A model generated the notes under the pieces. The model was not told where the DNA came from. It searched no databases and saw only the letters and a program-made list of their open reading frames with translations. Shown piece by piece: positions 936-57,410 of a stretch of DNA of 64,000 nt. A program made the position numbers and the translations under genes. Each line of letters starts with the position of its first letter. The first letter of the stretch is position 1. This DNA is from a virus. The stretch covers positions 1-64,000 of the IMG/VR virus record IMGVR_UViG_3300032289_002472; one strand, given 5' to 3'.

Positions 936-1686
936 CATACCACTTCGGCTTTCGCCGCCCTTTCGGTTTGTGGTCTGGACTTTATCTTCATCCATGCGTT
1001 TACATGGAGGCTACCGTCAAGTCTCTACACCTTCCGCCGTAAAGCGGCTTGGCTCGGGGTTGTCATCTAATAAAATAGAAGAGTTCTCCGAATTTGATAG
1101 CTTTAATTCATGAATTACTTCATGATTGACCCTAGACTATAATCATGTTAAGATTTCTCTTTATGAAATGCAATAAATGCCACAAAGAGTTTCCGACGTT
1201 TATGATAATTGACGGGAAACGTAGAAACCTACAAAGAAGAAAGTTTTGTATGAAGTGTTCACCTTTTGGTGAACGAAACACAATAGACCTGAATAAAAGA
1301 CCCGAAACAGTACACTGTGTTCAGTGCAATGCTGTTTTACGTTTTAATCAATTACTCTATTGTTCATCTTTTTGTAAGTCTACCCATTCCGAAACAGTCA
1401 ATCAATCTACTTATAAATGTCAACAAGGCAGAGCATTGGCTCGCAAAGTGTCATTTGTAAATAAACTCGGAGGTAAATGTGAAAAGTGCGGATACAACAA
1501 AAATCTTGCTGCATTAATCTTTCACCACCTCGATCCACGACAAAAAACAATTCCCCTGGACGCAAGAAATCTTTCAAATAGAAAGGAGTCAAAACTTCTT
1601 GAGGAATTAGAGAAGTGTTCACTTCTCTGTCAAAATTGCCATGCCGAAATACATTACCCATATCTTAATTTAGATCTAATCATTCA
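936..1686 (-). ncRNA. Group I intron in the tRNA anticodon loop, carrying an antisense HNH gene
   Basis: On the minus strand the 3' portion shows the group I core. A P/Q-like CCCCGAGCCAAGCC lies near 1055. An R-like GAGACTTGACGGTAGC covers about 1010-1025. A P8-like CCATG/CATGG hairpin comes next, followed by an S-like GAAGATAAAGTCCAGACC at about 973-990, giving the GACU/AGUC P7 pairing. The intron ends in G at 936. Its 5' part is filled by the HNH ORF on the opposite strand, apparently in a peripheral loop closed by ATGATT/AATCAT. Length is about 751 nt. Confidence 0.8.
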
Positions 1687-1708
1687 AGCCGACTGCTCTG
1701 ACCATTGA
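1163..1708 (+). CDS. HNH homing endonuclease, encoded antisense within the tRNA intron
   Basis: This is a zinc-finger-rich HNH nuclease of about 181 residues from the ATG at 1163 (an in-frame ATG at 1145 would add six). Two CxxC pairs lie near the N-terminus (CNKCHKEF and CMKC), with another in CVQC. The catalytic region has CEKCGYNKNL, then FHHLD, then CSLLCQNCHAEIH, the usual order for treble-clef HNH enzymes. It presumably cuts intronless tRNA alleles to spread the intron. It is transcribed opposite to the intron and tRNA, and its last residues are read from the antisense of the tRNA 5' exon (stop TGA at 1706-1708). Confidence 0.8.
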   Translation: MKCNKCHKEFPTFMIIDGKRRNLQRRKFCMKCSPFGERNTIDLNKRPETVHCVQCNAVLRFNQLLYCSSFCKSTHSETVNQSTYKCQQGRALARKVSFVNKLGGKCEKCGYNKNLAALIFHHLDPRQKTIPLDARNLSNRKESKLLEELEKCSLLCQNCHAEIHYPYLNLDLIIQADCSDH

Positions 1709-4259: not shown

Positions 4260-4318
4260 CTGACCAACGAATTGGTCAGACACCTCAACCTACTCCTAAG
4301 AGCAGGCTGATGTGATTA
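4260..4318 (-). promoter_or_regulatory. Two-hairpin intergenic module D
   Basis: Hairpin 1 is a divergent CTGACCAA/TTGGTCAG (4260-4279). Hairpin 2 is TCAGCCT/AGGTTGA (4285-4310). It starts at the stop of the 4316-4786 gene as TAATCACATCAGCC. Hairpin 1 sequence is replaced while the stem is kept. Confidence 0.6.
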
Positions 4319-4786
4319 GTTATTCTGAAACAAACTACTGTAGTCGGACTCGGGTCTCTGCAGCCAAGCAGGAAAACCTTTCTTGGGTTTGTTATCCCAC
4401 TTGGGATTTTCGTCGTCGACCATAAGGCTTGGAAGCCTTTGCTTGACCCCATCAAGAACTTCTTGCATGTCAAAGAAATGCAATCCATTGAGAGCGTCAA
4501 ACAAGTTATCTCGACTGATGACCCCCAACTGAATTGCCCTAACCATAGCAATAGCTTTGCTAAGGTTCTCTCTGCAGATGTCCTTGTAGAGAATCCAGAT
4601 ATTCGATCCGTAGATTTCAAAGGCATCCAGATTTATGATAAATCCAAGCTCCTGAGAAACATTTTCCGGATCAATCTCAGGACTCTTTTTAAGAGAATCC
4701 GTCAAGACTTTGAGTGCTCCAGGATTGCCTTCGCTAACCGTAAAGATTGCGTCAAAGGCAGACATTCCTAACTTGATTTTTGCCAT
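4316..4786 (-). CDS. Phage protein with SEGNPGAL motif, unknown function
   Basis: A 156-residue protein with SEGNPGALKVL near residues 18-28, then GFIINLDAFEIYGSNIW and LYKDICRENLSKAIAMVRA. I recall related proteins in other large phages, all without assigned function. A hydrophilic, proline-containing C-terminus follows. It has an AAACCACAACA leader, and the 36-nt array 4880-5409 lies directly upstream in the same transcriptional direction. Confidence 0.65.
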   Translation of the reverse strand: MAKIKLGMSAFDAIFTVSEGNPGALKVLTDSLKKSPEIDPENVSQELGFIINLDAFEIYGSNIWILYKDICRENLSKAIAMVRAIQLGVISRDNLFDALNGLHFFDMQEVLDGVKQRLPSLMVDDENPKWDNKPKKGFPAWLQRPESDYSSLFQNN

Positions 4787-4862: not shown

Positions 4863-4879
4863 TCCCTAAATTGAAAATT

Positions 4880-5409
4880 GGTTCACTGAGTCGAAGTGGG
4901 TTTCTTTGCTATTTTGGTTCACTACAACAAAGTGGGTTTCTTGTGTCTGTTGGTTCACTCGAAAAACCTGGGTTTCTGGCATTAAGTGGTTCACTATTGA
5001 TTCTTGGGTTTCTTGAATACGCTGGTTCACTATGGGAGATTGGGTTACTTCGATGTATTGGCTCACTGACTTTGCGTGGGTTTCTCGTATTCAATGGTTC
5101 ACTAACAACTACTGGGTTTCTTTGTTGGTTTGGTTCACTGATTCGCCATGGGTTTCTTCAATGCAATGGTTCACTACAACAAAATGGGTTTCTTGAGCTT
5201 GCTGGTTCACTTACGTCGGGTGGGTTTCTTTGTTGGTTTGGTTCACTGATTCTCCATGGGTTTCTTCAATGCAATGGTTCACTACAACAAAATGGGTTTC
5301 TTGAGCATTTTGGTTCACTACAAAAAACTGGGTTTCTTTGTGACCGTGGTTCACTATTTTCCATTGGGTTTCTAACAATGACTGGTTCACTGCGGTAATG
5401 TGGGTTTCT
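4880..5409. repeat. TIGR-like array 1: 15 units of 36 nt with two alternating boxes
   Basis: GGTTCACT occurs at 4880 and then every 36 nt to 5384. GGGTTTCT occurs 18 nt after each, from 4898 to 5402. The two boxes are separated by 10 variable bases, usually ending in T, so boxes may be 9 nt (TGGTTCACT, TGGGTTTCT) with 9-nt spacers. The period is exact across all 15 units. Only two boxes vary (GGGTTACT at 5042, GGCTCACT at 5060). This layout (two short repeats, two short spacers, 36 nt) matches the published description of TIGR arrays. Neighbouring genes on both sides are on the minus strand, so leftward transcription is likely but not proven. No Tas gene is recognised nearby. Confidence 0.85.
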
Positions 5410-5460
5410 TTAGGTTCTTGGTAACCACAACACGGATGACACACGTCACCCATGAAAGTG

Positions 5461-5500
5461 TAAAAAATAAGGCTGGGGACAACATATGCCATCCCCAGCC
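5461..5500 (-). terminator. Strong terminator upstream of array 1
   Basis: GGCTGGGGA (5471-5479) pairs with TCCCCAGCC (5492-5500). On the minus strand the stem is followed by TTATTTTTTA. Leftward transcripts from 5698-6195 should end here, so array 1 would need its own promoter in 5410-5460 or beyond. Confidence 0.75.
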
Positions 5501-5697: not shown

Positions 5698-6195
5698 CTA
5701 GGACCAAATGCGGTGCTTTTCAGCAACCCACTCTTGGCCATCGTAGTCCTTGATTTCCCACTCTATTCCAAATGGAACCTCTACGACACGAAGATTTGTG
5801 GCTTCAGGACCCAAAGCCTCAACTGCAGCGACCAATTTAGGGTCATCTCTGTTTATACCTTCACCATAGTAAACATCACCAGACAAAGGTTCGATTCCCA
5901 TATAGTTCTGCACAGCCTTTGACAGCTGGAACACCCCATAGGTGGTATATATTACCACTTTCTGAGGCTTGGGACCGATAGGCCTCACATATCTTGTGAT
6001 AGGTTCAACGAGATCGTCCTCGTCATTGGGATTCTCCCAATCGTAGACCAATTGATTCATGGTGGAAGCATCAAGAACGATATTAACATCATCGGACATG
6101 ATAACCGCCTCATGAACTGTAGAATTAGATTCCTCGTCCTTTCTATAAAGAACAGAGAAACCTGTGCATGGTTTTTGAATGTTTTCTAAGCTCAT
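5698..6195 (-). CDS. Phage protein of unknown function (165 residues)
   Basis: An acidic soluble protein. A region at about 82-105 (RPIGPKPQKVVIYTTYGVF) may be a beta-alpha unit, and the C-terminus is rich in Trp and charged residues. The start has an AAACCACAACA leader 8 bases upstream. It ends just before a bidirectional terminator, so it is likely a single-gene transcript. No family is recognised. Confidence 0.6.
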   Translation of the reverse strand: MSLENIQKPCTGFSVLYRKDEESNSTVHEAVIMSDDVNIVLDASTMNQLVYDWENPNDEDDLVEPITRYVRPIGPKPQKVVIYTTYGVFQLSKAVQNYMGIEPLSGDVYYGEGINRDDPKLVAAVEALGPEATNLRVVEVPFGIEWEIKDYDGQEWVAEKHRIWS

Positions 6196-6332
6196 AGTTT
6201 TTTGTTGTGGTTTAGATTGGATACTAAAAATGTATCCATTATATTATGGCTAAAATAGTCCTTGATTTTATGGGCCTTAATTTAATATTAGACACTCCAT
6301 TCAATATAGCGTAATTTATGGGTATACTAATT

Positions 6333-6827
6333 ATGAAAAGAAAATGGAGTCCAATATGGAAACTAGAAGAAAGTAAATTTATCGATCTAGTAAAAACATC
6401 TAAAAGAAAAAAAGACGTCTTATTGTATTTTGGGTTAAAAAACAAAGGAGGGAACAGTAAGACTCTACAAAAAAGAATTAACCAACTAAAATTAGAAACC
6501 TCACATTTTTTAAACTGTGGAAATTCTTCTTGGCTCAATAGACCCCCATTAACTAGGGAAAACGCAATTCAATATATTGAGCAAAAATTACAATGCAGAA
6601 AAAACATTAAAAAATATTTAATAAAATACGATATTATTCCTTATGAATGTTTTGTATGCAAAAACAATGGACTTTGGAACAATAAAAAACTTTCATTACA
6701 ATTAGAACACATAAATGGCATATCGGATGACAACAAAATAAAAAACCTTTGCTTTTTGTGTCCAAATTGCCATAGTCAAACATCAACATTTTCAGGAAAA
6801 AATCGCAAAAAATCCCCATTAGTGTAG
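6333..6827 (+). CDS. HNH endonuclease ending inside tRNA-Gln
   Basis: A protein of about 164 residues from the ATG at 6333 (an upstream ATG at 6318 adds five). The N-terminal part is basic and helical, with an FIDLVKTSKRKKDVLLYFGL helix-turn-helix-like stretch. The C-terminal part is a classic HNH with CFVCKNNG, LQLEHINGISDDN, then CPNCHSQT and FSGKN. It is a free-standing homing-type nuclease, and no target is visible. It is very AT-rich compared with its neighbours, which suggests transfer. Its TAG stop lies in the first 15 bases of the downstream tRNA-Gln. Confidence 0.85.
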   Translation: MKRKWSPIWKLEESKFIDLVKTSKRKKDVLLYFGLKNKGGNSKTLQKRINQLKLETSHFLNCGNSSWLNRPPLTRENAIQYIEQKLQCRKNIKKYLIKYDIIPYECFVCKNNGLWNNKKLSLQLEHINGISDDNKIKNLCFLCPNCHSQTSTFSGKNRKKSPLV

Positions 6828-44253: not shown

Positions 44254-44280
44254 AATGTTTAATTAACGCTCTTCCTTAAT

Positions 44281-44758
44281 GGGTTTCTGGAGGAAAATGG
44301 CTCACTTTCTTGGGCTGGTTGTCTTTGTTGACCTGGTTCACTACACAAACATGGGTTACTTGGATTTTTTGATTAGCTGAATTCCTCTGGATTTCTACTG
44401 CCACAATGGCTCACTTGATAGATGTGGTTTGATGATGTTCAATGGTTCACTGGCTCTGTGTGGTTGTCTAGCTTTCGATGGTTAACTGGCGATCTTTGGG
44501 TATCTTGACTTACCGTGGTTCACTCTCATGCAGCGGGTGTCTAACGAATTCTGGTTAACTAATGTTCATCGGGTGTCTATCATCCACAGGTTCACTTATT
44601 CATAATGGGTTTCTAAAAACCAATGGTTCACTGGACCGGTCTGGGTTTCTCATTTGAGATGGTTCACTGATCTTCAGTGGGTGTCTACTTCATTTTGGTT
44701 CGCTGTCGTAATCTGGGTGTCTGCGATGCTGTGGCTCACTATGTCGTGTTGGGTGTCT
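44281..44758. repeat. TIGR-like array 2: about 13 units of 36 nt, more divergent boxes
   Basis: GGGTTTCT-type boxes occur at 44281, 44317, 44353, 44389, 44426, 44462, 44498, 44535, 44571, 44607, 44643, 44679, 44715 and 44751. GGTTCACT-type boxes lie 18 nt between them (44299 to 44733). Spacing is 18 nt except for two 19-nt steps (before 44408 and 44517). Boxes vary more than in array 1 (GGGTGTCT five times, GGTTGTCT, GGCTCACT, GGTTAACT, GATTAGCT). The variable 10-base segments differ from those of array 1. It lies between minus-strand genes. It may be an older or decaying array, or one with relaxed box constraints. Confidence 0.8.
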
Positions 44759-45511: not shown

Positions 45512-45604
45512 TTAGTATTGGTAGTTCAGCCATAAAAGGCCCAACACTGAATAGATAATGATGGCTACTATGGCTACATAATATTTGTTAATTTTTGTTT
45601 TCAT
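45512..45604 (-). CDS. 30-residue single-TM peptide
   Basis: MKTKINKYYVAIVAIIIYSV continues to end in GLLWLNYQY; ATG 45602-45604, TAA 45512-45514. It is hydrophobic with a basic start. It lies between a membrane protein gene and array 3a. Small but well formed. Confidence 0.45.
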   Translation of the reverse strand: MKTKINKYYVAIVAIIIYSVLGLLWLNYQY

Positions 45605-45611
45605 AATTAAT

Positions 45612-45673
45612 GGGACACTTCACAATCTTGGGTTACTTGCGACTGGTGGTTCGCTGAAGCGGACTGGTTTTCT
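45612..45673. repeat. TIGR-like array 3a (short)
   Basis: Boxes GGGACACT (45612), GGGTTACT (45630), GGTTCGCT (45648) and GGTTTTCT (45666) are spaced exactly 18 nt. They follow the two-box alternation of arrays 1 and 2 but with degenerate first boxes. A trailing GGCTTTTG at 45684 may be a further decayed box. Confidence 0.6.
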
Positions 45674-45783
45674 AGCCTGTGGTGGCTTTTGTCGTTATAA
45701 ATGCGACGTCAAATTTATAACAAGTTCTAAGTATTTCTAGCTACTTTAAGTTAGAAATTAATATAGAATCACTAACAATATCT

Positions 45784-45936
45784 GGGTATCTTTCGTTCAT
45801 CGGTTCACTTTACGGAACGTGGTTTTCTAGGACGTACTGGTTCACTCGATCTGACTGGGTTTATGGGCATCGGTGGTTCACTCTTCAACTCTGGTTTACT
45901 TGGGCTTTTTGGTTCGCTGGGCACCCGTGGTTGTCT
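45784..45936. repeat. TIGR-like array 3b
   Basis: Nine boxes alternate at 45784 (GGGTATCT), 45802, 45821, 45839, 45857, 45875, 45893, 45911 and 45929 (GGTTGTCT). GGTTCACT is kept at 45802, 45839 and 45875. Steps are 18 nt with one 19-nt step. Array 3a and 3b are separated by 110 nt with short hairpins (GTCG...CGAC, TTTCTA/TAGAAA). Confidence 0.7.
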
Positions 45937-54952: not shown

Positions 54953-55681
54953 TTAGCCCCCAACTGGATATAGTGGTGGTGGTGGTGGAACGGCTTTTCC
55001 TGTGTTGGGATCAATTTTATAGAAATTTTGTTTCATTTTATTTCCCAATGGCGTTACTGCATTGGGACCCGATACAGAGCCTGGGCCATAATTTGCTAAA
55101 TCCATCTGCCCCTCATTAATCATTTGCTGTTCTGAAGGCATGATCATTTGACCATTTGGAATTTTTTCAACCCTCAATTGAGGTAAACTATCCTTTAATC
55201 TCATTTGAGGTGCGGATGAATTAATGCTTTTAGCTGCGTTTTCAACCCTCAATTGAGGTAAACTATCCTTTAATCTCATTTGAGGCGCGGATGAATTAAT
55301 GCTTTTAGCTGCGCTCCCAATGCCTCCAAACATGGCCCCCAGGCCACCTCCAATAGCGCTTCCAGCTGCACCCAGAGCGGCTGCAGGATTAACCATAGGA
55401 TTAGTTGCCAAACCTTTTATGTTCCCAAAAGCAGAACTTACCTGGTTGCCAATTGAATTTGCAACAGAGCCTAAAATACTGGGCTGTGAATTACCCATAT
55501 AATTACCTCTTCTGCTTGGAGGAACACCACGAGAAACTGTTTTAGGGTTAAGCAACCCACCTCTTCCAACTAAGCCGCCTCTATTGCTATAGGGGACTCC
55601 CATAACAGTAGGAGGAGTATAAGGATCGGCTGCAGTCTTTTGGCTCAGCTCATTTAAATAGGTTTTTGTATATTTATTCAT
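54953..55681 (-). CDS. MNKY-leader protein 2 with Gly-rich body and 72-bp repeat
   Basis: A 242-residue protein starting MNKYTKTYLNELSQKTAADP. The body is Gly/Ala/Pro-rich (NPAAALGAAGSAIGGGLG), and a 24-residue unit AAKSINSSAPQMRLKDSLPQ plus LRVE occurs twice in tandem (72-bp direct repeats at about 55167-55240 and 55239-55312). Proline run near the end (VPPPPPLYPVGG). Possibly a virion protein. Confidence 0.6.
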   Translation of the reverse strand: MNKYTKTYLNELSQKTAADPYTPPTVMGVPYSNRGGLVGRGGLLNPKTVSRGVPPSRRGNYMGNSQPSILGSVANSIGNQVSSAFGNIKGLATNPMVNPAAALGAAGSAIGGGLGAMFGGIGSAAKSINSSAPQMRLKDSLPQLRVENAAKSINSSAPQMRLKDSLPQLRVEKIPNGQMIMPSEQQMINEGQMDLANYGPGSVSGPNAVTPLGNKMKQNFYKIDPNTGKAVPPPPPLYPVGG

Positions 55682-57324: not shown

Positions 57325-57331
57325 TTTAAAA

Positions 57332-57410
57332 TGGAGGTGGTCGGAATCGAACCGACGTTATGAGAACTATTGATTTGTGTCAACACTCATACGAAGCCAA
57401 TGCACCCCCC
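57332..57410 (-). ncRNA. tmRNA-like tRNA domain without tag region
   Basis: Minus strand: acceptor GGGGGTG pairs with CACCTCC, T-arm GTCGG/CCGAC with loop TTCGATT, discriminator A. In place of a D-arm is CATTGGCTTCG, close to the tmRNA D-loop style (TGG-TTCG). Next is a closed P2-like hairpin: TATGAG/CTCATA with inner TGTTGA/TCAATA around CACAAA. No anticodon stem with U33 can be drawn. It looks like the tRNA-like half of tmRNA with the coding loop removed. A degenerate tRNA is the alternative. Confidence 0.5.

Follow-up and report, generated by a model that had tools for sequence, protein, structure and literature searches.

A probable TIGR-TasA system split over a phage genome

The question of whether a short, strictly periodic two-box array in viral DNA encodes guide RNAs, and which protein would use them, is raised by positions 4880 to 5409 of a 64,000-nucleotide stretch. 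This stretch (the window) comprises bases 1-64000 of the 113,067-base IMG/VR record IMGVR_UViG_3300032289_002472, and an original prediction made from the sequence alone had read the locus as a tandem interspaced guide RNA (TIGR) array. The computational analysis described here points to a TIGR-TasA system that is split over the genome of an uncultivated bacteriophage, a reading to which a probability of roughly 0.93 is assigned.

Structure of the array

The locus contains 15 GGTTCACT and 15 GGGTTTCT boxes, which alternate at an exact spacing of 18 nucleotides (nt) from 4880 to 5409, and the predicted 15 units with a 36-nt period were thus confirmed. Except for GGGTTACT at 5042 and GGCTCACT at 5060, all boxes are exact (28 of 30). 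A T invariably precedes each box on the plus strand, so that the repeats are 9 nt long (TGGTTCACT and TGGGTTTCT) and the variable parts also 9 nt, instead of the 10 variable bases per box assumed before. A single repeat of 25-36 nt that alternates with spacers of about its own length, as expected for clustered regularly interspaced short palindromic repeats (CRISPR), is not present; the alternating 9-nt repeats and the 36-nt unit agree with the earlier exclusion of this class. Arrays were detected with a box-chain model, using block-shuffled versions of the genome as control, in which zero arrays were found.

The edge (AGTGAACCA) and the A-rich loop (AGAAANCCA) were assigned according to the TasH array of Salicola phage CGphi29 (HQ634153). 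This control array, read in the direction of its tas gene, has the repeats AGCGAGCCA / AGACAACCA and ends with a truncated edge followed by a terminator. Read in this way, array 1 covers 4879..5427 on the minus strand and consists of 15 TIGR RNA (tigRNA) units with the edge AGTGAACCA, the loop AGAAACCCA and 9-nt spacers. It starts with a 5'-truncated edge, TGGTTACCA (5427-5419), and its 3' end is a full edge, followed by a hairpin without a U-run ahead of the next gene. Both repeats have the form AG....CCA known from SpTIGR, with AG as box D and CCA as box C.

Identification of the Tas protein

The exact box pair of array 1 recurs in other viral contigs, and Tas was identified as the protein family common to these contigs and the record of the window. 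In the record, it is encoded outside the window at 108284-109465 (L003:6284-7465) on the minus strand as a protein of 393 amino acids, the start being set at the second methionine, and its reading frame is intact. A Tas protein combining Nop with RuvC or HNH had been suggested as a check on the prediction. A tas gene does exist elsewhere in the genome, so that the outcome named as refuting, a genome without any Nop-domain protein, did not occur. Its product has a Nop-like region, which starts close to the N-terminus, but neither a RuvC nor an HNH domain is present. The protein is regarded as TasA-like because of this lack of a nuclease domain.

The assignment to Tas is supported by NCBIfam NF052498 TIGR_Tas_endo ("TIGR-Tas system RNA-guided endonuclease"), which matches with 111 bits (7.4e-32; curated cutoff 100). 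A profile built from nine Tas relatives matched TasH (6.8e-63) and the TIGR-TasR structure 9mty (4.9e-34) in the PDB. For the AlphaFold model of the protein (mean predicted local distance difference test score 75), the top structural matches were the TasH-tigRNA complex 9w03 (5.8e-7) and TasR 9mty (1.8e-6), followed by weak matches to archaeal Nop5 and IS621. The search of the record with Pfam Nop PF01798 gave no match, the Tas protein being too distant from this family.

A scan with four Tas sequences revealed 76 Tas loci in viral contigs, and at 69 of them an array with repeats of this family lies next to the gene; the nearest array lies 13-626 nt from tas in 12 sampled loci. The spacers of these arrays are not conserved as they would be in a coding or binding-site repeat, 708 distinct spacer pairs being present in 830 units. 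In total, the TIGR reading of the original prediction is well supported by the sequence and fold of the Tas encoded in the record, by the adjacency in the relatives and by the similarity of the repeats to those of CGphi29. The exact edge-loop-edge pattern was found in 14 viral contigs and in none of 84,980 species genomes. With the Tas protein of the window phage as query, no close relative was detected in viral contigs, and tblastn against 50,697 records of isolate phages gave no match. No close isolate phage was found either, with identities of at most ~32% for the DNA polymerase and 26.5% for the terminase among the matches listed.

Three of the relatives (L077-L079 in G018, G017 and G014) encode a Tas with an N-terminal HNH domain (TasH) and ~80 extra N-terminal residues compared with the protein of the window phage, yet carry the AGTGAACCA / AGAAANCCA repeats found with nuclease-less Tas. 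Effector type and repeat sequence are therefore not tightly coupled.

Guide strand and additional arrays

The window contains two further, degenerate arrays (44280-44758 and 45595-45936), which had been overlooked in the original prediction. Array 2 (44280..44758, minus strand) contains 27 boxes and is more degenerate, with AGTGAACCA, AGTGAGCCA or AGCGAACCA as edge and AGACACCCA or AGAAACCCA as loop. Array 3 comprises a main part with 10 boxes (45765..45936, minus strand) and a detached degenerate piece with about five boxes (45595..45691, minus strand).

All three arrays lie on the same strand as tas, the minus strand. Among the relatives, the AGTGAACCA / AGAAANCCA reading places every array scoring >60 (68 of 68) on the same strand as its tas gene. 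For this reason, the minus strand is taken as the guide strand, and not the plus strand as formerly proposed. This changes the interpretation of the flanks. The stacked hairpins reported at the right of array 1 exist (5500-5471 with a U-run, and 5454-5431), but are encoded on the minus strand and thus lie on the upstream side. They belong to the leader (5428..5500, minus strand) and do not terminate the array. Four terminator-like hairpins were found in the consensus scan, compared with 2.0 expected in shuffled sequences. The leader hairpins probably insulate the array from the upstream gene. An RNA leader gene had also been placed at the left of the array, where the Rfam search revealed no RNA family beside it.

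Position of the arrays relative to tas

Three arrays of which none is located next to tas are an unusual arrangement. Arrays remote from tas are also seen in the relative G008 (277 kb), in which a first array neighbours tas and a second one is separated from tas by ~143 kb. The record of the window is therefore not the only one with a distant array. If the contig ends join, array 1 is ~8.6 kb from tas. The record, with its 113 kb, is probably incomplete and does not demonstrate the huge phage that had been proposed as the carrier. At its end (L003:10852-11067), the record stops within a run of collagen-like 27-nt repeats, and this points to an assembly break and not to a natural end.

Several points weigh against a split TIGR-TasA system. 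The neighbourhood of tas in the record contains no array, the three arrays being 62-104 kb away, and that the Tas protein makes use of such distant arrays is something we infer. Downstream of array 1, the consensus scan detected no terminator of the published kind; a 3'-truncated edge with a terminator is the typical end of a TIGR array, but not a defining feature (PMC12045711). Furthermore, no target was found for any guide in the searches made, neither in the genomes of the phages themselves nor in the pattern-scanned collections. A search with the spacer pairs had been recommended with the original prediction.

Target search and alternative explanations

In the target model, spacer A precedes spacer B in reverse complement, and 0-2 bp may separate the two, a geometry derived from the published 8-nt 3' overhang and the C-5 rule. 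This search also bears on the strongest alternative, namely that the phage controls genes of its own with guides that pair to the DNA of leaders or promoters. Several spacers (ACAACAAAA and similar) resemble the A/C-rich gene leaders of the phage, and a match of 16 out of 18 positions occurs at the tas leader, which was rejected as a target due to its wrong geometry and a quality at chance level. When four geometries were tried at gaps of 0-2, targets in the own genome were no more frequent than with shuffled pairing; for the derived geometry, each of the eight records gave own-genome scores equal to those of the shuffled control. Likewise, 636 guides gave no excess of matches over 1.49 Mb of tas-bearing phage DNA, a scan that left out loci fetched with the same patterns, the inclusion of which produced an apparent excess. 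Self-regulation is thus considered unlikely.

Exact scans of viral contigs gave 9 chance-like matches for TTGCATTGA..GATTCKCCA and, for TTCGATGARRTTTTACAA with a 2-bp gap, 15 matches (~7 independent), which are chance-like as well. Without gap, TTCGATGARRTTTTACAA had 8 matches, including an unconvincing one in a terminase, and with the 2-bp gap it matched 73 times in the 84,980 species genomes with no coherent gene.

Somewhat less probable still is that the arrays are relics which are out of use, a tas-linked array having been lost and the guides having decayed. The degenerate state of arrays 2 and 3 and a tas gene without adjacent array would fit, but the almost perfect repeats of array 1, the intact tas frame and the additional distant array of G008 argue against decay.

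A protein-coding repeat was considered due to the open reading frame (ORF) 4871-5398 on the plus strand, which would yield a repetitive protein of the form GSLxxxGFLxxx. The array had been described as free of any ORF of its own; in fact this frame of 175 amino acids crosses most of it, but is not a gene. It is open because 36 is a multiple of three and neither box contains an in-frame stop codon. It is antisense to the tas-based array direction, and the full span 4879-5427 has stops in every frame, as has array 2. Of 67 related arrays with 15 or more boxes, only 3 have any open frame, spacings of 17 and 19 nt disrupt the frame in related arrays, and the spacers vary freely, unlike those of a coding repeat, which makes this explanation very improbable. 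Finally, a CRISPR-like or other direct repeat unconnected to Tas, such as an array of protein-binding sites, which can be periodic short repeats, has a negligible chance, since two boxes alternate in a 36-nt unit, the spacers are not conserved, and the arrays lie next to Tas genes in a strand-specific manner at 69 of 76 loci.

Codon signal in a sister clade

In an exploratory analysis, guide pairs (A+B) were found to recur between phages with few differences, 42 similar pairs being counted compared with one after shuffling of B. In a sister clade (G008, G005, G002, L071 and L073), 11 guide groups differ by synonymous codon changes if the half-sites are placed 2 bp apart. The codon score at this gap was 19.4, compared with 2.4 +/- 3.2 for random changes, and was reached in 0 of 1000 permutations; the signal was weaker at gaps of 0 and 1 (p 0.03 and 0.003). 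Guides reading PEWxQA show 6 synonymous and 0 other changes over three variants, those reading DGQxHR 3 and 0. As the differences are nearly exclusively synonymous, the targets in this clade are probably protein-coding DNA, and the guides differ as if they followed the drift of one shared target gene.

The signal is treated as a lead, because the groups tested were also those that had suggested the hypothesis, one gap out of three was selected, and 27 groups outside the sister clade lack the signal. A comparison of the gap-2 motifs with ORFs of the fetched phage DNA gave no convincing match, with three loose matches for degenerate motifs only. In the window array, a difference of one base is found in just one pair of guides (TTGCATTGA combined with either TGGAGAATC or TGGCGAATC), and this does not suffice for a codon test. 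A tentative proposal, with the odds somewhat against it, is that the natural targets are protein-coding genes with two 9-nt half-sites 2 bp apart and that the guides of the window phage act in trans, being encoded in arrays remote from tas.

Proposed mode of action

From the published family, we infer tigRNA processing, DNA binding and targeting as follows. Transcription of the three minus-strand arrays would yield precursor RNAs, to be cut inside the edge repeats into 36-nt tigRNAs consisting of half an edge, spacer A, the loop, spacer B and half an edge. Each tigRNA would be bound by a dimer of the nuclease-less Tas, encoded elsewhere in the genome, which would recognise the AG (box D) and CCA (box C) motifs contained in the edge as well as the loop. 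In this complex, each of the two 9-nt spacers would pair with a different strand of one DNA site, which is predicted to be bound and bent, but not cut. What is blocked in this way would most likely be a gene that belongs to the host or to a competing element, and not one of the phage itself. This biological role is a guess.

Other features of the window

Array 1 is followed on its 3' side by a gene for a small protein without PHROG match (4316..4786, minus strand) and preceded on its 5' side by a gene of PHROG 16527 with unknown function (5698..6195, minus strand); neither gene is known to be part of the TIGR-Tas system. An A/C-rich leader with AACCACAACA or similar precedes the minus-strand genes at 4786, 6195 and 4226 as well as tas in L003. 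Motifs resembling TATATTATGGC also occur there, and both together are a possible phage promoter or leader element.

Rfam detected a group I intron at 954-1151 on the minus strand (63.6 bits), beside a gene for a free-standing HNH endonuclease (1145-1708, plus strand, PHROG 2255). A second HNH gene (6318-6827, plus strand) is located near a tRNA cluster. At 57329-57409 on the minus strand, a marginal match to transfer-messenger RNA (tmRNA) was obtained (48.8 bits, cutoff 47), with the whole 374-position model fitted within 81 nt; it is probably spurious or a remnant, as ARAGORN finds no tmRNA there. A tandem duplication of 75 bp with 98% identity lies within a coding region at 55164-55313. The protein encoded at L002:6641-8158 is similar to PHROG 2825 (polymerase) and weakly to the reverse transcriptase PHROG 1423.

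Comparison with known systems

The natural targets and the role of TIGR-Tas are stated to be not yet known (PMC12045711), and guides common to different phages make the question of the targets testable by sequence comparison. In all, 76 Tas loci in viral contigs, most of them with arrays of one repeat family, are added here, together with a phage whose three arrays lie apart from tas and a clean guide-strand rule (68 of 68). In the isolated cyanophage Mvi-JY20 of Microcystis, a Tas relative is followed by an unannotated array with the repeats TGCGAGCCA / ACGAAACCC and a terminator (L253:3700-4010), which makes it a cultivable TIGR phage.

The closest known system is SpTIGR-TasH of Salicola phage CGphi29, the 36-nt RNAs of which have been published (Faure et al., 2025; PMC12045711). 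Both systems are phage-borne and share two alternating 9-nt AG....CCA repeats, the 36-nt period and a homologous Tas. With AGCGAGCCA as edge and AGACAACCA as loop, SpTIGR has repeats similar to those of array 1 and nearly identical to those of array 2. SpTasH, however, has an N-terminal HNH domain and its array directly follows the gene, whereas in the window phage, Tas lacks a nuclease domain and the three arrays lie at a distance from its gene. TaTasR (9mty) shares the Nop-domain fold, the array layout, the A-rich loop repeat and box C (CCA), but its repeats begin with UG (box D) and it contains RuvC, in contrast to AG repeats and a Tas without RuvC here.

The similarity to IS110 transposases and box C/D Nop5 is limited to a weak resemblance of the fold and to Pfam Transposase_20 matches in Tas relatives; the system of the window phage has neither a DEDD domain nor a bridge RNA, and an L7Ae or fibrillarin partner is not implied, no search for one having been made. 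With CRISPR arrays it shares repeats and variable spacers, but differs by its alternating 9-nt repeats, paired 9-nt spacers and a Tas effector, no search for cas genes having been made. Like TIGR-TasA, which is found mostly in phages (Faure et al., 2025), it combines a solo Nop-domain effector with dual-repeat arrays. In published TIGR-TasA loci, array and tas lie side by side, whereas the 113-kb record has tas and the three arrays at separate places. The kind of system itself was published in 2025; in this member, the guides are encoded far from the protein gene.
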